Origin: an uncultured Sphingomonas sp. | GTDB lineage: Bacteria; Pseudomonadota; Alphaproteobacteria; Sphingomonadales; Sphingomonadaceae | Assembly (NCBI RefSeq): GCF_913776855.1 | Contig: NZ_CAJYQD010000001.1 | Coordinates: 44,736 to 108,735, forward strand | DNA length: 64,000 nucleotides | Reading direction: 5' to 3' | Shown: in pieces, positions 2,105 through 28,888 of the stretch | Position numbering within the stretch: position 1 is the stretch's first letter | Layout of the letters: every line of letters starts with the position of its first letter | Notes under the pieces: model-generated | Databases searched by the model: none | The model's input: only the letters and a program-made list of their open reading frames with translations | Told to the model about the DNA's origin: nothing | Program-made: the position numbers and the translations under genes

Positions 2105-3130
<1,026 letters not shown>

Positions 3131-3146
3131 TCCCGGTCGATGCGCT

Positions 3147-3171
3147 GTCCCCCGGACCGGTTCCGGGGGAC
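3147..3171. terminator. Perfect 10-bp stem hairpin after asd
   Basis: gtcccccgga-ccggt-tccgggggac; no clear T-tract. Confidence 0.45.
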
Positions 3172-3287
3172 CCATCGGAAGCGGTGCGACGCGGCCCGTG
3201 TCGATCGGTACGATGGCGTACCCCGAACGACGGTCGGCACCCTCGTTTCCTAAGACGGTCTTAACCGTGCGCGCGTAATGTTTGCGC

Positions 3288-3989
3288 ATGGACACGCAGA
3301 GTATCCGGGATGGCGCGCTATACCTTGGCGCGTGGGAAGCGATCTGCCGGTCGCAGGCCGTGGTCGAGTTCGCGCTGGACGGCACCGTGCTGTGGGCGAA
3401 CGACCTGTTCCTCGAAACGATGGGCTATGCGCTGGCGCAGGTGCGCGGGCACCACCACCGCATCTTCTGTCGCCCGATCGACAGCAATTCCGCGGACTAT
3501 GCGCAATTCTGGCGCAAGCTTGGGCAGGGCGCGTTCGACAGCGGGCTGTACCGCCGGGTCGACCGGCAAGGCCATGATATCTGGTTGCAGGCGACCTATA
3601 ATCCCATCCTCGATCCCGATGGCAAGCCGTCGTCCATCGTCAAGATCGCGACCGACCTGACCCGGCAGGTGCTGCTGGAACGCGAGGTGCAGACGCGCCT
3701 CGACGAGGGGCAGCGGTTCCGGACGCGACTGGAGGGACAGGCGGATGCGCTGCGCACGGTGATGACGCAGCTGGCGGCGATCGTGACGTCGATCGGCGAC
3801 ATCACCGCGCAGACCCGCCTCGTCGCGCTGAACGCGGCGATCGAGGCGGCGCGGGCGGGCGAGGCCGGGACCGGCTTTGCGGTCGTCGCGCGCGAGGTGA
3901 AGTCGCTGGCCGAGGATATTCGCCGCGCGACCGAACGCGCATCGACGATGTTGCGCGACAACGAAATGGCCGGCGCGATCGCGGCCTGA
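3288..3989 (+). CDS. Soluble PAS domain / short methyl-accepting-type signalling protein
   Basis: N-terminal PAS ([16 protein letters not shown]), then MCP tip motif ([33 protein letters not shown]); no TM helices. Confidence 0.85.
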
Positions 3990-20230: not shown

Positions 20231-21694
20231 ATGCTGGGCTGGTTTCGCAAGAATGCCCCTATCCGGACGAAATTCGTCTTCATGGGGGGCATCTATACGC
20301 TCCTGACGGCGATCCCCGTTGTGGCAACGGTCGCAGCGGTCAACGGCCTGGCGTCGCCATCGCTGTTGATCGGCGTCGCGCTGGCCGCACTCGTGACGAC
20401 CATCGTGCTTACCGCCGTATTCCGCAGCGCGGTCTGCGACCCCTATGTCGATTCGGTGGTCGGCATGGAAGCGATCGCCGCCGGCGACCTGTCGCGCCCG
20501 ATCGACTATGTGGCGTATCAGGACTGCATCGGTCGCATGGCGCGCGCGATGCAGGTGTTCCAGGCCAATGGGCAGGCGGTCAAGGACGCTGCGCAGGGAC
20601 AGCAACAGGTGGTCGGCCGGTTGGGCGAAGGCCTGTCGCGGCTGGCCGCAAGCGACGTCAGCTATCGCATCGCCGAAACCTTTCCCGCCGATTACGAACG
20701 GCTGCGCACCGATTTCAACGCGGCGATGGACGCGGTGTCGGAAGTGCTGGCGGCGGTGCGCGAAGCAACCAGCGGCATCAACGACGGTGCCAACGACATT
20801 CGTGAGGCATCCGACGATTTGTCGCAGCGGACCGAGCAGCAGGCCGCAAGCCTGGAAGAGACGGCCGCCGCGATGGACCAGATCACCGGAACCGTGCGCG
20901 AAACGGCGGCCGGGGCGACCCGCGCCCACACCGTGGTCAACGAAACCCGCGACGAGGCCGAACAATCGGGCGACGTCGTGCGCCGCGCCGTCGATGCGAT
21001 GCACGGGATCGAGCGCGCGTCGGGCGAGATTGGCGACATCATCACCGTGATCGACGGCATCGCGTTCCAGACCAACCTGCTGGCGCTGAACGCCGGGGTC
21101 GAGGCCGCCCGTGCGGGTGATGCCGGCAAGGGCTTTGCCGTCGTCGCATCCGAAGTACGCGCGCTGGCGCAGCGGTCGGCCGATGCGGCCAAGGACGTGA
21201 AGACCAAGATCAACGCGTCGTCCGAACAGGTCGCGACCGGCGTCGAGCTGGTCAGCGAAACCGGCAAGGCGCTGCAACGGATCATCGGCCGCATTGGAGA
21301 GATCAGCGCGCTGGTCGGCACCATCGCGACCTCCGCCGATCAGCAGGCGACCGGGCTGCAACAGGTCAATACCGCCGTCAACGAGATGGACGGCGTGACG
21401 CAACAGAATGCCGCGATGGTCGAACAGGCCACCGCCGCTGCCCGCCGCCTGGCCGAAGAGGCACAGGAACTGACGCGGCAGGTGAACCGCTTCACGCTGG
21501 CCGCCGGGGCATCCGCCGGTGGCGGCATGTCGTCGTTCCGGGGCGCGCCGACGCAGAGCGCAGTCCATCGGCTGCAGGCCCGCGTGGCACAGGTCAGCCG
21601 CGACATGGCGCCGCCGCCGCGTCGAAAGGTCGCCGCCAGCGGCGGTCCTGCCGTCGCCGCTATGGTCGATGACGACGACTGGACCGAATTCTGA
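20231..21694 (+). CDS. Methyl-accepting chemotaxis protein
   Basis: Two N-terminal TMs, HAMP, signalling tip (AFQTNLLALNAGVEAARAGDAGKGFAVVASEVRALAQRS), C-terminal DWTEF pentapeptide. Confidence 0.95.
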   Translation: MLGWFRKNAPIRTKFVFMGGIYTLLTAIPVVATVAAVNGLASPSLLIGVALAALVTTIVLTAVFRSAVCDPYVDSVVGMEAIAAGDLSRPIDYVAYQDCIGRMARAMQVFQANGQAVKDAAQGQQQVVGRLGEGLSRLAASDVSYRIAETFPADYERLRTDFNAAMDAVSEVLAAVREATSGINDGANDIREASDDLSQRTEQQAASLEETAAAMDQITGTVRETAAGATRAHTVVNETRDEAEQSGDVVRRAVDAMHGIERASGEIGDIITVIDGIAFQTNLLALNAGVEAARAGDAGKGFAVVASEVRALAQRSADAAKDVKTKINASSEQVATGVELVSETGKALQRIIGRIGEISALVGTIATSADQQATGLQQVNTAVNEMDGVTQQNAAMVEQATAAARRLAEEAQELTRQVNRFTLAAGASAGGGMSSFRGAPTQSAVHRLQARVAQVSRDMAPPPRRKVAASGGPAVAAMVDDDDWTEF

Positions 21695-21735: not shown

Positions 21736-21999
21736 ATGACCATCGCCCTTCCTGCCATATTAGACACTCCCGCCGCCGCCCCGCTGCGCCAGACGCTGCG
21801 CGATGCGATCGGCACCGGCCGCCCGATCCAGCTCGACGCGTCGGGGGTGGAGCGGATCGGCCAGGCGTGCCTGCAGGTGCTGGCCGCCGCTGAAGTCGCG
21901 GCGGAAGAGGCCGGTCAGCCATTCCACATCACCGGCGCAAGCCCTGTGTTCGCTGATATGGCGACGCTGGCGGCGCTCGACACCCTCCTCGCCGCCTGA
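21736..21999 (+). CDS. STAS domain-containing protein
   Basis: About 87-aa protein with STAS pattern (IQLDASGVERIGQACLQVLAAA), between mcp and cheA. Confidence 0.85.
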   Translation: MTIALPAILDTPAAAPLRQTLRDAIGTGRPIQLDASGVERIGQACLQVLAAAEVAAEEAGQPFHITGASPVFADMATLAALDTLLAA

Positions 22000-22014: not shown

Positions 22015-24204
22015 ATGGACCTCGACGCAATCCAGCAGATCTTCTTCCAGGAATGTGAGGAAGGCCTTGCCGCGATGGAGGGCAACTTCACGTTGCTGCG
22101 CGACGGCGATCGCGATTCGGAAACGATCAACGCCGTGTTCCGCTGCGTCCATTCGATCAAGGGCGGGGCAGGGGCGTTCGGGCACGAGCGCCTGCAGGCC
22201 TATACCCATCAATATGAAACGCTGCTCGACCTGATCCGCAACGGTACGCTGGAGCTGACGCCCGCGCTGCTCGACGTGGTGGTGGGGGCGTTCGACGTGC
22301 TGTCCGACCATGTCGCGGCCGCGCGTGACCATGATACGCCGCCGTCCGATGCGGCGATGCTGGAACGGCTGGCCGCGGCGGCCGGGGGCGACACCGCTCC
22401 GAAGGCCGCCGCAACCCCCGCTCCCGACATCGCTCCGGCGGCCGCGGTGTCAGATGACTTCGACGACCTGATGTCGATGCTGGGCGATGTCGCGCAGTCG
22501 GAGGACGGCGCGGACGCGGCCAATGGCTGGCGCCTGCGCTACACGCCGGGGGCCAAGGCGTTCGAACATGGAGCCGAACCGCTGCTGCTGCTGCGCGAGC
22601 TGACGATGCTGGGGGGCAAGGTCACGCTTTGCGACCGGGCCGCGCTGCCCCCGCTCGACATGATGGAACCCGAGTGCGGCTATCTCGCATGGGACGTGGC
22701 ATTGCCGGCCAGCGTAGCCGAGGACGATATCCGCGCGGTGTTCGAATTCGGCGATCCGACCGCGATCACGTTGATGCAGGGCGATGCCGCGCCGGCCATG
22801 GCTGAAGATAGCGTCGATGCGCTGTTCGACCTGTTGGATTCGTTCGACGTGGCTCCTGCGCCGGTCGCGGTCGTCGAGGAACCGGCTGTCGTGGCATCGC
22901 CGCCTCCGCCGCCGCCGCCTGCGCCGGCACTGGTCGTTGCGCCGGCGCCCACACCCGCTCCGGTTGCGGCGGAGCCGGCCGCGCCGCGTGCCGTGGCGCC
23001 GAGCGCACCGGCGGCACCGCCCGCACAGACCATCCGCGTCGACCTCGACAAGCTCGACCGGCTGGTCAACCTGGTCGGCGAGCTGGTGATTACCCAGGCG
23101 ATGCTCGCGCAGCGGCTGGCCGAGAACCAGATGGGCGGCATTTCCGAACTCAGCGACCTCGAGCATCTGACGCGTGAGCTGCAGGAATCGACGATGGCGA
23201 TCCGCGCGCAGCCGATGAAGACCGTGTTCAGCCGCGTGCCGCGCATCGTCCGCGAACTGGAGGGCGAAACCGGCAAGCGGGTCCGCCTCGAGGTGGATGG
23301 CGAGATGACCGAGGTCGACAAGACCGTGGTCGAGCGTATTGGCGAGCCGCTGACCCATCTGATCCGCAACGCGGTCGACCACGGCCTCGAAATGCCCGAC
23401 GTTCGCGTCGCCGCGGGTAAGCCGGCCGAGGGCGTCGTTCGCCTGGCGGCGGCGCATCAGTCGGGGCGGATCGTCATCACCGTGTCCGACGATGGACAGG
23501 GCATCAACCGCGCGCGCGTGAAGGCGAAGGCGATCGAGAAGGGCATCATCATGCCCGATGCCGTGTTGAGCGATGAGGAGATCGACAATTTGATCTTCGC
23601 GCCCGGTTTTTCGACCGCGGCGGCGATCACCAACGTCTCCGGCCGGGGCGTCGGCATGGACGTGGTGCGCAAGAACATCCAGGCGCTGGGCGGTCGCATC
23701 GGCATCCAGTCGCGCGAGGGCTTCGGGTCCAGCTTTTCGCTCAGCCTGCCGCTGACGCTGGCGGTGCTGGACGGCATGATCGTGACCGTTGGCCAGCAGA
23801 CCTTCGTCATTCCGCTCGGCCATATCGTCGAAAGCCTGCGCCCTGACGACGACACGCTCAGCCGGCTGGGTCCGGACGGGACGCTGCTCGACGTGCGCGG
23901 GTCGTACGTGCCGGTGCTGCGCATCGCCGACTATCTGGGCATCGAGGGGGCGGAGCGGAACCCGACCAATGCCGTGCTGATCGTGGTCGAGGGCGACCAT
24001 GGCCAGGCCGCGCTGCTGGTCGACACGATCCAGGATCAGCGGCAGGTCGTGGTCAAGAGCCTCGAGGCGAATTACCAGGCGATCGACGGCGTAGCCGGGG
24101 CGACGATCCTTGGCGACGGGCGCGTCGCGCTGATCGCCGATGTCGATGCGCTGACCACCCGCGGCCGCTTCGCCAACCGTCCGTCGGCGGCGCTGGCGGC
24201 ATGA
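22015..24204 (+). CDS. cheA: Chemotaxis histidine kinase CheA
   Basis: P1 VHSIKGGAGAFG, Pro/Ala-rich linker, LVNLVGELVI dimerisation, HLIRNAVDHGLE, GRGVGMDVV, C-terminal CheW-like domain. Confidence 0.97.
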   Translation: MDLDAIQQIFFQECEEGLAAMEGNFTLLRDGDRDSETINAVFRCVHSIKGGAGAFGHERLQAYTHQYETLLDLIRNGTLELTPALLDVVVGAFDVLSDHVAAARDHDTPPSDAAMLERLAAAAGGDTAPKAAATPAPDIAPAAAVSDDFDDLMSMLGDVAQSEDGADAANGWRLRYTPGAKAFEHGAEPLLLLRELTMLGGKVTLCDRAALPPLDMMEPECGYLAWDVALPASVAEDDIRAVFEFGDPTAITLMQGDAAPAMAEDSVDALFDLLDSFDVAPAPVAVVEEPAVVASPPPPPPPAPALVVAPAPTPAPVAAEPAAPRAVAPSAPAAPPAQTIRVDLDKLDRLVNLVGELVITQAMLAQRLAENQMGGISELSDLEHLTRELQESTMAIRAQPMKTVFSRVPRIVRELEGETGKRVRLEVDGEMTEVDKTVVERIGEPLTHLIRNAVDHGLEMPDVRVAAGKPAEGVVRLAAAHQSGRIVITVSDDGQGINRARVKAKAIEKGIIMPDAVLSDEEIDNLIFAPGFSTAAAITNVSGRGVGMDVVRKNIQALGGRIGIQSREGFGSSFSLSLPLTLAVLDGMIVTVGQQTFVIPLGHIVESLRPDDDTLSRLGPDGTLLDVRGSYVPVLRIADYLGIEGAERNPTNAVLIVVEGDHGQAALLVDTIQDQRQVVVKSLEANYQAIDGVAGATILGDGRVALIADVDALTTRGRFANRPSAALAA

Positions 24205-25064
24205 GCCGGGCCGCCGCCCTCACCGACAATCGCGCGCGCGAATTCGCGTTCGATGCCGGCGACCACCGCGCCATCGCGGCGCTGGTGTATGACGAGGTCG
24301 GAATCCTGCTGCCCGATGGCAAGGCGCAATTGGTCTATGGCCGGATCGCCCCGCGCGTGCGGGCGTGCGGGCTGACCAGCTTTGCCGACTATGTGACCCG
24401 GATCGGCCGCGATGCCGAGGAACGCGGCCGCGCGATCGATGCGCTGACGACGAACCACACCAGCTTCTTTCGCGAAAACCATCATTTCGAGGATTTCGTG
24501 GAGCGGATCTGGCCGCCGCTGGCCGACCGGCTGGCAAAGGGGGGCCGGGTGCGGCTGTGGTCGGCGGCGTGTTCGAGCGGGGAAGAACCCTATTCGTGGC
24601 TGATGGCGATGTTCGGCACCGACCGCGCCGCCGCCCAACGACTTTTGAAGACCGACCTGCGGATGCTGGCGACCGATGTGTCGCCCAGCGTGCTGAACAC
24701 CGCGCGCGCCGGCCGGTATTCGAAGGAAACGATGCGGACCGTACCCGCGTCGCTGCGTTCCGTGTGGACCGGGGGGGACGGCGACAGCCTTGTCGTCGAT
24801 CCGGTCCTTCGCGACGCGATCGCGTTCAAGCCGCTAAACCTGCTCGGCGACTGGCCGTTCAAGGGGCGGTTCGACACGATCTTCTGTCGCAATGTGATGA
24901 TCTATTTCGACGAGCCTACCAAAGAGCGCCTGCTGGCGCGGCTCGGCGAGCGGTTGGAGGTTGGGGGGATGCTCTATATTGGTCACTCGGAGCGGCTGAT
25001 CGGCCCGGTGCAGGACAAGTTCCGCTGTATCGGCCGCACCGCCTATCAGAAGATCGCCGCATGA
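24201..25064 (+). CDS. cheR: Chemotaxis protein methyltransferase CheR
   Basis: TNHTSFFRENHHF, LWSAACSSGEEPYS, FDTIFCRNVMIYFD. Confidence 0.96.
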   Translation: MSRAAALTDNRAREFAFDAGDHRAIAALVYDEVGILLPDGKAQLVYGRIAPRVRACGLTSFADYVTRIGRDAEERGRAIDALTTNHTSFFRENHHFEDFVERIWPPLADRLAKGGRVRLWSAACSSGEEPYSWLMAMFGTDRAAAQRLLKTDLRMLATDVSPSVLNTARAGRYSKETMRTVPASLRSVWTGGDGDSLVVDPVLRDAIAFKPLNLLGDWPFKGRFDTIFCRNVMIYFDEPTKERLLARLGERLEVGGMLYIGHSERLIGPVQDKFRCIGRTAYQKIAA

Positions 25065-26095
25065 GCGTCCGGACCCTCATCGTCGATGATTCGATGGCGA
25101 TGCAGGCGATCATCCGCCGCCGGCTACTCGCTGATCCGGGAATCGAAGTCGTCGGTACCGCCGCCAGCGCCGACGAGGCCCGCGCGCAGATCAAGGCGCT
25201 GGACCCCGATGTCGTGACGCTGGACATCGAAATGCCGGGGATGAGCGGCCTGGACTTCCTCGAACGGCTGATGCGCCTGCGCCCGACGCCGGTGGTCATG
25301 CTGTCGACGCTAACCGCACAAGGGGCGGAGGCGAGCCTGACCGCGCTGGAGCGCGGCGCGTTCGACTGTTTCGACAAGACCCGGCTGATGGCCGGGACCG
25401 ACGCGGCCTGCACGTCGGAACTGACCGAACTGGTCCGCGCCGCCGCCACTGCGCGTCCCGCCGCACGCGCGACGCCGGTCCGCGCTGTGCCGGTGCAGGA
25501 ACGGGCAGGCTATACCCCGCGTCCCGGCGCGATGATCGCGATCGGCGCGTCGACCGGCGGGGTCGAGGCGCTGATCGAGCTGTTGTCGAGCTTTCCGGCG
25601 AACTGCCCGCCGACCGTTATCGTCCAGCATATGCCCGCGACCTTCACCCCCAGCTTTGCCGCACGCCTCAACCGCCTGTGCGCGCCAAGTGTCGAGGAAG
25701 CGCGTGCGGGCGCACCGCTGACGGTGGGCAAGGTCTATCTGGCGCCCGGTGGCGAACGGCATATGGAGATCGGCGGATCGGGCGAGCGCCGCCATTGCCG
25801 CCTGGTCGAAGGCGACAAGGTGAACGGCCACCGCCCGTCGGTCGACCGGCTGTTCCATTCGGTCGCGCGCCTTGCAGGGCGCGATGCGACCGCCGCGATC
25901 CTGACCGGCATGGGCTGCGACGGGGCGGAGGGGATGAAGGCGATGCGCGGCTGCGGGTCGATGACCTTCGGCCAGGACAAGGCGACCAGCGTCGTTTACG
26001 GGATGCCCGCCATCGCCCATCAGATCGGCGCGGTCGCCGAACAGCTGCCGCTGCGTCGCATCGCCCAGCGGCTGCTGGCGGAATGTGCTGCATGA
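25061..26095 (+). CDS. cheB: Protein-glutamate methylesterase CheB (catalytic residues present)
   Basis: Receiver domain plus GASTGG, QHMP and TGMGCDGAEGM catalytic motifs. Confidence 0.96.
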   Translation: MSVRTLIVDDSMAMQAIIRRRLLADPGIEVVGTAASADEARAQIKALDPDVVTLDIEMPGMSGLDFLERLMRLRPTPVVMLSTLTAQGAEASLTALERGAFDCFDKTRLMAGTDAACTSELTELVRAAATARPAARATPVRAVPVQERAGYTPRPGAMIAIGASTGGVEALIELLSSFPANCPPTVIVQHMPATFTPSFAARLNRLCAPSVEEARAGAPLTVGKVYLAPGGERHMEIGGSGERRHCRLVEGDKVNGHRPSVDRLFHSVARLAGRDATAAILTGMGCDGAEGMKAMRGCGSMTFGQDKATSVVYGMPAIAHQIGAVAEQLPLRRIAQRLLAECAA

Positions 26096-26640
26096 GCGCC
26101 TTGTCGGCCCGCGACGGTCTGCGCCGGCTGACGGTGGCGCAGGGCGAGATGAAGGTCAGCGACGAACGCGATGTCGTGTTGACGACGGTGCTGGGCAGCT
26201 GCGTCGCGGCGTGCTTCTATGATCCGGTCGCGCACATCGGCGGGATCAACCATTACCTGCTGGCCGATGGCAATGCGTCGGACCCCGCATCGATGCAGCG
26301 TTACGGCGTCTATGCGATGGAAGTGCTGATCAACGCGATGCTGGCGCGCGGCGCCGCGCGGTCGCGAATGCGTGCGCGCATCTTTGGCGGGGCGACGATG
26401 CGCGCGGGTTTCCGTGACATCGGCGGCGCGAACATCGCCTTTGCGCGGCAGTTCCTGCGCGACGAACGCATCGCGCTGGTCGGCGAGGATGTGGGGGGCA
26501 CGCAGGCCCGCCGGGTCGAATTTCGCGCGGCGGTCGGCCTGGCGCGATGCCGGTCGGTCGTCGACACGGCGCCACCGCCGATCGTCGTGCGCACACCGCC
26601 ACCGCCACCCGCCGCCGTCGGCGACGTGGAGTTTTTCTGA
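26092..26640 (+). CDS. cheD: Chemoreceptor glutamine deamidase CheD
   Basis: LGSCVAACFYD and GGINHYLL motifs; Pro-rich tail ending GDVEFF. Confidence 0.94.
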   Translation: MSALSARDGLRRLTVAQGEMKVSDERDVVLTTVLGSCVAACFYDPVAHIGGINHYLLADGNASDPASMQRYGVYAMEVLINAMLARGAARSRMRARIFGGATMRAGFRDIGGANIAFARQFLRDERIALVGEDVGGTQARRVEFRAAVGLARCRSVVDTAPPPIVVRTPPPPPAAVGDVEFF

Positions 26641-27035
26641 TGACCGAATTTGCACCGAGGGAGCCTCTAGCCGTGGCCAAGACGATCATGACCGTGGACG
26701 ATTCGCCCAGTATGCGGATGCTGCTGCGGGTCGCGCTGACCGATCTGGGATATAGCGTCGTGGAGGCCGAGGACGGCGTTCACGCACTGGAGAAGCTGGA
26801 CGGGTTTCAGCCCGACCTGCTGATCACCGACATCAACATGCCGCGCATGGACGGGTTCGGCCTGATCGCCGAGGTCCGCGGGCAGGGGCGTCGCAGCCTG
26901 CCGATCCTCGTCCTAACTACCGAGAGTTCCGACGAAAAAAAGCAGCGCGCACGCGATGCCGGTGCTACCGGCTGGATCGTCAAGCCGTTCCACCCCGAAA
27001 AGCTGGCCGCCGCGATCCGGCGCGTCCTGCACTGA
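26640..27035 (+). CDS. CheY-like single-domain response regulator
   Basis: TIMTVDDSPSMR, DLLITDINMPRMDG, LTTESS, WIVKPF. Confidence 0.95.
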   Translation: MTEFAPREPLAVAKTIMTVDDSPSMRMLLRVALTDLGYSVVEAEDGVHALEKLDGFQPDLLITDINMPRMDGFGLIAEVRGQGRRSLPILVLTTESSDEKKQRARDAGATGWIVKPFHPEKLAAAIRRVLH

Positions 27036-27061: not shown

Positions 27062-27499
27062 ATGTCCCGCCAACTCATCACCTTTCAGCTGGGCGACCAG
27101 ATCCTCGGCGTCGACATCATGGCGATCCGCGAGATTCGTGCCTGGTCGCCGGCCACCCCGCTGCCCAACGTGCCGCCCTATGTGCGCGGTGTCGTGAACC
27201 TGCGCGGTGTCGTGCTGCCGGTGTTCGACCTGCGCCACCGGCTGAACTGGGGCGTGACCGACCCGTCGGCGCGCCATGTCATCATCGTCGTGCGGATCGG
27301 CGAACAGCTGCAGGGGATCATCGTCGATGCGGTGAACGACATCGTGTCGATCCATCCCGACGCCATGCAGCCGGTGCCCGACATCGGCGACGCCGAAGCG
27401 TCGCGATTCCTGGAAGGGTTGGCGACCATCGACAACCGCATGATCCTGGTGCTGGCGCTCGACCGACTGGTCGACCAGCCTGTCGCCGAAGCCGCTTGA
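27062..27499 (+). CDS. cheW: Chemotaxis coupling protein CheW
   Basis: TFQLGDQILGVDIMAIREI, PYVRGVVNLRGVVLPVFDLR. Confidence 0.96.
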   Translation: MSRQLITFQLGDQILGVDIMAIREIRAWSPATPLPNVPPYVRGVVNLRGVVLPVFDLRHRLNWGVTDPSARHVIIVVRIGEQLQGIIVDAVNDIVSIHPDAMQPVPDIGDAEASRFLEGLATIDNRMILVLALDRLVDQPVAEAA

Positions 27500-27532: not shown

Positions 27533-28534
27533 ATGCCTGCTAGCACCAAGGTCCTCGTCGTCGACGACTCCCTGACCATGCGGGCGCTCATATCGGGCGC
27601 GCTCGAACGGATTCCGGGTGTCGAGGTCGTCGGACTGGCCGATGGCGCCGAGGAAGCGCGCTCGATGGTGGCGTCGCTCAAGCCGCATGTCATGACGCTC
27701 GACGTCGAGATGCCGGGCATGAGCGGCATCGAATATCTGGCCGAGATCATGGAATCGAAGCCGATGCCGGTCATCATGTTCTCGACCCGCACGACCGATG
27801 GCGCGGGCGAGACGATCGAGGCGCTGCGCCTGGGGGCGATCGACTGCCTGCCCAAGCCGCGCGTGGCGGCCCCGGCCGAACTGAACGCGATCATCGCCAA
27901 GCTCGGCAAGCGCATCAAGTCGGCGCGCAACGCGCCGGTGAAGGTTCCCAAGGTCGCCAGCGCCGCGCGGCCGATCGACTGGAACGGCCGCCTGCTGGTG
28001 GTCGGCGGCGATGCGTCCAGCACCGCATCGATGTTCCACCTGTTCGGCCAGTTCCCGCCGAACTGCCCGCCGACGATCGTCGTCCAGCATCTGGGACCGG
28101 GCCTGGTCGAGGGCATGGTGGAAAAGCTGGGATCGCAGGTCGCGCCAAAGGTCGTGGTGGCGCAGGACGGCATGGCGATCGAACAGGGCACGATCTATTT
28201 CGCGCCGCAGGGTGACCATCACCTCGTTGTCGATGCTTGGCCCTCAGGCAAGCTGCGGTTGCTGGCGCGCGATCCGGTGGCGGGTGAGCGGCCGTCGATC
28301 TCGCTGCTGTTCGCCGCAGCCGCCAAGGCGGCCGGATCGAACGCGGCGGGCGTGCTGTTCCTCGATGGCAGCGAAGATGGCGGCGGCGGGTTGAAGGCGA
28401 TGCTGGGCGCGGGCGGCTATGCCTTTGCCCCGGCGGAGACCGGCGGCGGGCATACGCTGTCGCGCGGCATGGTGACGCAGCCGGTGCCGGCCGATGGTCT
28501 CGCCGCCGGCGTGCTGAAGCTGTGTTCGAAATGA
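27533..28534 (+). CDS. Second CheB-like protein; esterase domain lacks the GxSxG serine (putative pseudo-methylesterase)
   Basis: Intact receiver domain; GASTGG of the neighbouring CheB aligns without gaps to GGDASS here; QH and acidic-loop D retained. Confidence 0.85.
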   Translation: MPASTKVLVVDDSLTMRALISGALERIPGVEVVGLADGAEEARSMVASLKPHVMTLDVEMPGMSGIEYLAEIMESKPMPVIMFSTRTTDGAGETIEALRLGAIDCLPKPRVAAPAELNAIIAKLGKRIKSARNAPVKVPKVASAARPIDWNGRLLVVGGDASSTASMFHLFGQFPPNCPPTIVVQHLGPGLVEGMVEKLGSQVAPKVVVAQDGMAIEQGTIYFAPQGDHHLVVDAWPSGKLRLLARDPVAGERPSISLLFAAAAKAAGSNAAGVLFLDGSEDGGGGLKAMLGAGGYAFAPAETGGGHTLSRGMVTQPVPADGLAAGVLKLCSK

Positions 28535-28809
28535 GCGGGGTCGCGTTCCCCGCCGCCTCGCCCGCGCTGGGCGAGGCGCTGGCCGGCGAGCTGGAGCGGG
28601 CTTCGCGCCTGCTCGGCGAGCTGGCGTTCGAGCTGGGCAGCGACGAAACGACGCTGCGCCGGCACCTGACCGGCCTGCAGTCGATCGACCATGTGACGCA
28701 GATCTTGCTGAACATCGCGACCGTGCTGCGCGCGGGCGAGGGAACGGATCAGCTGGCCGGGGTTACGCTGGAGGATGTCGCGGGACGATTGCGCGCGAGC
28801 CTGAATTGA
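28531..28809 (+). CDS. Hypothetical 92-aa helical protein, candidate CheZ-like phosphatase
   Basis: ATGA-coupled to cheB2; contains TGLQSIDHVTQILLNIATVL (LQxxDxxxQ). Confidence 0.7.
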   Translation: MSGVAFPAASPALGEALAGELERASRLLGELAFELGSDETTLRRHLTGLQSIDHVTQILLNIATVLRAGEGTDQLAGVTLEDVAGRLRASLN

Positions 28810-28814
28810 TCGGC

Positions 28815-28888
28815 TGGTGCCCCGTGCAGGAATCGAACCCGCGTCTCTTCGTTACAAAGGAAGCCGTTTACCATTAACGTAACGGGGC
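28815..28888 (-). tRNA. tRNA-Thr (anticodon UGU), encoded CCA
   Basis: Minus strand GCCCCGT...ACGGGGC A CCA; D arm CGTT/AACG, anticodon loop TTTGTAA, T arm GCGGG-TTCGATT-CCTGC. Confidence 0.85.

Follow-up and report, generated by a model that had tools for sequence, protein, structure and literature searches.

How is the CheY-P signal of a flagellar-type che system ended in a genus that is without CheZ and in which CheC and CheX are rarely or never found? Phosphatases of the CheC, CheX and FliY families also terminate such signals in bacteria. The che operon in the window, by which we mean the whole 64,000-nucleotide stretch of Sphingomonas DNA analysed here, offers a testable answer in its last gene, orf92 (28531-28809, + strand), whose product is currently annotated as hypothetical. 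Translation confirmed that this open reading frame encodes a 92-amino-acid protein carrying TGLQSIDHVTQILLNIATVL. Based on conservation, profile comparison and genomic context, we consider it likely that Orf92 is a minimal CheT-type receiver phosphatase with a CheZ-like DxxxQ motif, most likely acting on CheY-P and probably as a homodimer; a CheZ-like mechanism is plausible.

All genes of the operon lie on the + strand. It begins with an MCP-type chemoreceptor, named from its sequence (20231-21694), and a small, putatively STAS-type protein in a CheS-like position (21736-21999), followed by CheA (22015-24204; PF02895, E = 1.2e-17), CheR (24201-25064), CheB1 with its catalytic S-H-D intact (25061-26095), CheD (26092-26640; PF03975, E = 1.4e-24), CheY (26640-27035), CheW (27062-27499), whose place in the order is conserved, CheB2 (27533-28534) and Orf92. 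The ATG of orf92 overlaps the stop codon of cheB2, which bears out the ATGA coupling described in the earlier note. A tRNA-Thr gene (TGT, 28815-28888) is found on the opposite strand immediately after the operon.

That note had also remarked that no cheZ, cheC or cheX was visible in the cluster, and neither CheZ, CheC nor CheX was found in this genome. Because the assembly is about 85% complete, the absence of CheZ rests on the genus mates: none of 61 genus genomes gave a PF04344 score above cut-off, one sub-threshold match being seen in G020, and CheZ is present in most sampled genomes from other families of the order. Of 22 genus mates sampled for CheC, one had it. The operon context, together with the absence of these phosphatases, fits the earlier proposal of a minimal phosphatase for CheY-P or CheB2-P; descent from CheZ did not hold as far as sequence shows, as described below.

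The gene is genuine. A scan of species genomes was run from the orthologue alignment with patterns that excluded D53 and Q57, and it placed 53 orthologous loci in named genomes, comprising 50 from Sphingomonas, one from Novosphingopyxis and two labelled Bacillus and Microvirga, which are probably mislabelled. The nearest named relatives, in Sphingomonas sp. Leaf32 and S. hankookensis, are 96% identical over the protein. The orthologue resides just downstream of cheB2 in 52 of the 53 loci, with the 4-bp overlap common to 43, and [LI]Q..D...Q is retained in every one. More distant members were added by searches in relatives, and an alignment of 87 distinct sequences from four sub-groups, combining orthologues, paralogues and proteins in the position of CheT, has only three fully invariant columns: Q50 (codon 28678-28680), D53 (28687-28689) and Q57 (28699-28701). 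A glutamate in helix 1, E20 (28588-28590), is kept in 84 of the 87. It should be noted that the Q..D...Q pattern itself initially served to pick two of the CheT-position entries, L166/L175 and L172, so their agreement in these columns is not independent; the others were found by similarity. The motif is thus not a chance match, and loss of D or Q among orthologues, which had been named as an outcome that would count against a phosphatase, was not seen.

The protein had been expected to be mostly helical, and AlphaFold2 supports this, with helices predicted at residues 11-36, 39-44, 46-67 and 80-91. In the predicted topology, helices 11-36 and 46-67 form a hairpin that is followed by a third helix, 80-91; this last one falls in the C-terminal amphipathic region VTLEDVAGRLRASL (28762-28803), and CheT-position proteins have a third helix that aligns with it. 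A CheT-position protein is predicted with the same topology, two long helices and a third. Both models are monomers of moderate confidence, the mean pLDDT being 75.6 for Orf92 (about 92 over most of the hairpin and low in the third helix) and 72.5 for the CheT-position protein. On a helical wheel, Q50, D53 and Q57 lie 145-175 degrees away from the hydrophobic face of their own helix; D53 and Q57 are therefore probably not buried within the hairpin, an arrangement that would have spoken against contact with CheY, and the wheel suggests that all three residues are exposed. A fold search of both models against the PDB returned generic helical hairpins with no significant match, and CheZ was not among the listed hits; such a search is uninformative for hairpins this short.

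The comparison with CheZ separates chemistry from ancestry. In E. coli CheZ, which reads AQDFQDLTGQ, a single helix carries the Asp and the Gln at a distance of four residues, and the same spacing on a helix face that the wheel suggests to be exposed makes a CheZ-type mechanism plausible for Orf92, with D53 and Q57 as the proposed counterparts of CheZ D143 and Q147. The conserved Gln that precedes the Asp, however, stands at D-3 in Orf92 and at D-1 in CheZ, and Orf92 is less than half the length of CheZ and is without its QDxTGQ core. With regard to the long four-helix-bundle dimer of CheZ, the model of Orf92 is a hairpin predicted as a monomer, with no significant PDB match. The HMM-HMM comparison that had been proposed earlier gave a probability of 0.4% and a score of 15.0 for the family against CheZ, within the shuffle background for both the whole protein and the catalytic fragment, and Orf92 does not match PF04344. 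As far as these profiles reach, we therefore reject a minimal CheZ by descent. Searches of Pfam, NCBIfam and PDB profiles with the protein or the family yielded chance hits only, and weak matches to frames of 400-520 aa in distant genomes were likewise treated as chance. The CheC, CheX and FliY phosphatases (PF04509, PF13690) differ from Orf92 in fold and motif. Aspartyl-phosphate phosphatases of the Spo0E type are also small two-helix proteins acting on receivers and have a different motif; Orf92 gave no Pfam match.

What the profiles do connect Orf92 with are proteins in the position of CheT, which we collected by similarity and by synteny (CheB-CheY-CheD-X, with X followed by FliF in L175/L176). 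In their alignment, A3, an invariant Glu, Gln, Asp and Gln match E20, Q50, D53 and Q57, and hhalign of the family against A3 gave 94% (E = 1.5e-7, score 46.8) over 85 columns, while scores did not exceed 15.7 in 150 column shuffles and reached 14.5 with the reversed alignment. The orthologues alone matched the CheT-position proteins at 75% (E = 2.5e-5). Since the A3 score is above the controls and the CheZ score is in the background, we place Orf92 with the CheT-position proteins, to which it is related at the profile level. Common to both are the invariant Q..D...Q, the Glu of helix 1 and a C-terminal helix. Orf92 is shorter, with 92 residues against about 112-138 for the aligned proteins, and is without the Trp-x-x-Asp segment and the C-terminal Phe-Phe tail that they conserve. 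Its position also differs, as it comes after CheB2, some 2 kb from cheD; CheT usually follows cheD directly, as do the sphingomonad paralogues of Orf92, although we did not treat this placement as part of the sequence definition of CheT. A different small protein with LQSVDRRRQ is found downstream of CheB in another alphaproteobacterium (L137, about 2959-3318 in reverse-complement coordinates) and matches the family profile weakly.

The proposed link to characterised CheT is drawn from this synteny and from the published description of the Sinorhizobium meliloti protein (Agbekudzi et al. 2024), a small che-cluster protein with DXXXQ from bacteria that are described as being without CheZ. In PMC12654446, which cites 10.1111/mmi.15303, S. 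meliloti CheT is stated to carry DXXXQ, to have a CheZ-like predicted structure and to enhance the dephosphorylation of one CheY, and a CheR-CheT complex is reported. The same paper gives the A. fabrum che cluster as atu0514-atu0522, ending in CheD and CheT, and the S. meliloti cluster is described in PMC8429497.

Within the genus, the family is coupled to che clusters of the CheD type. All 32 CheD-positive genomes carry a member, compared with three of 29 CheD-negative genomes (Fisher P = 3e-14, uncorrected for shared ancestry), and these three comprise two PilZ fusions and one fragmented assembly. The 32 genomes, out of 61, hold 33 CheD loci: in 16 the member resides about 2 kb beyond CheD, as in the window, in another 16 its distance from the end of the CheD domain is 113-156 bp, and the remaining locus is at a contig end. 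In the second sphingomonad cluster type the genes run CheY-CheA-CheW-CheR-CheB-CheY-CheD-X, an arrangement close to that of the che clusters of A. fabrum and S. meliloti. Counting against the CheT-type reading, in many CheD-bearing Alphaproteobacteria no such gene adjoins cheD. A second, divergent CheA, with frames of mostly about 770-790 aa and a weaker PF02895 score, occurs in nearly all genus genomes independently of CheD and possibly belongs to a non-flagellar chemosensory system.

Based on these results, we suggest that Orf92 probably serves to turn off the swimming signal in this genus, which is without CheZ. It would end the signal by helping a phosphorylated receiver of the operon, most likely CheY, to hydrolyse its aspartyl phosphate. 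D53 would contact the active site of the receiver, Q57 would orient the attacking water as in the CheZ mechanism, and the C-terminal amphipathic helix may aid docking, probably in the context of a homodimer. A hypothetical protein would thereby become a clear target for mutagenesis.

Other roles for the invariant residues have to be weighed against this one. Instead of being an enzyme, Orf92 could act as an adaptor or docking protein for a partner such as CheR or CheB2, with the Q-D-Q face as its binding surface; the reported S. meliloti CheT-CheR complex points that way, and a helix face with three invariant polar residues could serve as an interface. We find this doubtful, since an Asp and a Gln four residues apart, invariant amid drift, are what CheZ-type catalysis needs, and since CheT itself is reported both to promote dephosphorylation and to bind CheR. 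It is very improbable that Orf92 is a small HPt or other helical protein in which the D-x3-Q match is coincidental. Short helical hairpins are common, the PDB fold search gave non-specific helical hits, and H45 is conserved in the orthologue group, all of which would suit such a protein; however, H45 is replaced by Tyr in most members of the second cluster type, while Q50, D53 and Q57 never vary, and profile searches of Pfam, NCBIfam and PDB gave no HPt match. As H45 is not universal, the family has no invariant histidine to accept a phosphoryl group, and we rejected an HPt identity.

The remaining alternative retains a CheT-type phosphatase and concerns its partner, and it begins from the unusual state of CheB2. 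Judged by its residues, CheB2 is a pseudo-methylesterase. None of the 51 orthologues compared has the catalytic Ser at the position of E. coli CheB Ser164, where 47 carry Asp and 4 carry Glu, and 12 have Gln in place of His190. Every one of the 51 retains D10, D11 and D56 of the receiver. With an intact receiver and a dead esterase site, CheB2 could be a phosphate sink, a role that the earlier note had offered for Orf92 and that Orf92 cannot fill because it is without a receiver domain. Orf92 might accordingly dephosphorylate the receiver of the co-translated CheB2, or be regulated by it, with CheB2 serving as a sink or a receptor-bound timer. The near-constant position behind cheB2, the shared ATGA overlap and the preserved receiver favour such a pairing, but gene order does not give specificity for CheB2. 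Moreover, no CheB2 was seen in the second cluster type, where the family member comes after CheD, nor was one detected in G343, where it comes after CheW; CheB2 is therefore not a required partner, and we regard the pairing as rather unlikely.

If the preferred reading of Orf92 as a CheT-type phosphatase holds, the range of CheT-type proteins would grow beyond rhizobia to take in sphingomonads, where they occur in several sub-types, including one fused to PilZ, and the family would be reduced to three invariant residues. A more speculative and, in our judgement, unlikely extension is that Orf92 and CheB2 form a dedicated sphingomonad module, in which CheB2, associated with receptors and devoid of esterase activity, acts as a phospho-acceptor and Orf92 sets how long it remains phosphorylated, with the same phosphatase domain placed under PilZ elsewhere in the genus. 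The PilZ fusions themselves, in which a CheT-like helical domain follows an N-terminal PilZ domain, are orphan genes of several genus mates and lie outside che clusters (L015, L016, L017, L018, L020, L022 and L025; e.g., L015:1012-1773). PF07238 scored above cut-off in all three of the fusions scanned; their RxxxR motif looks degenerate, and NxSxxG is kept.
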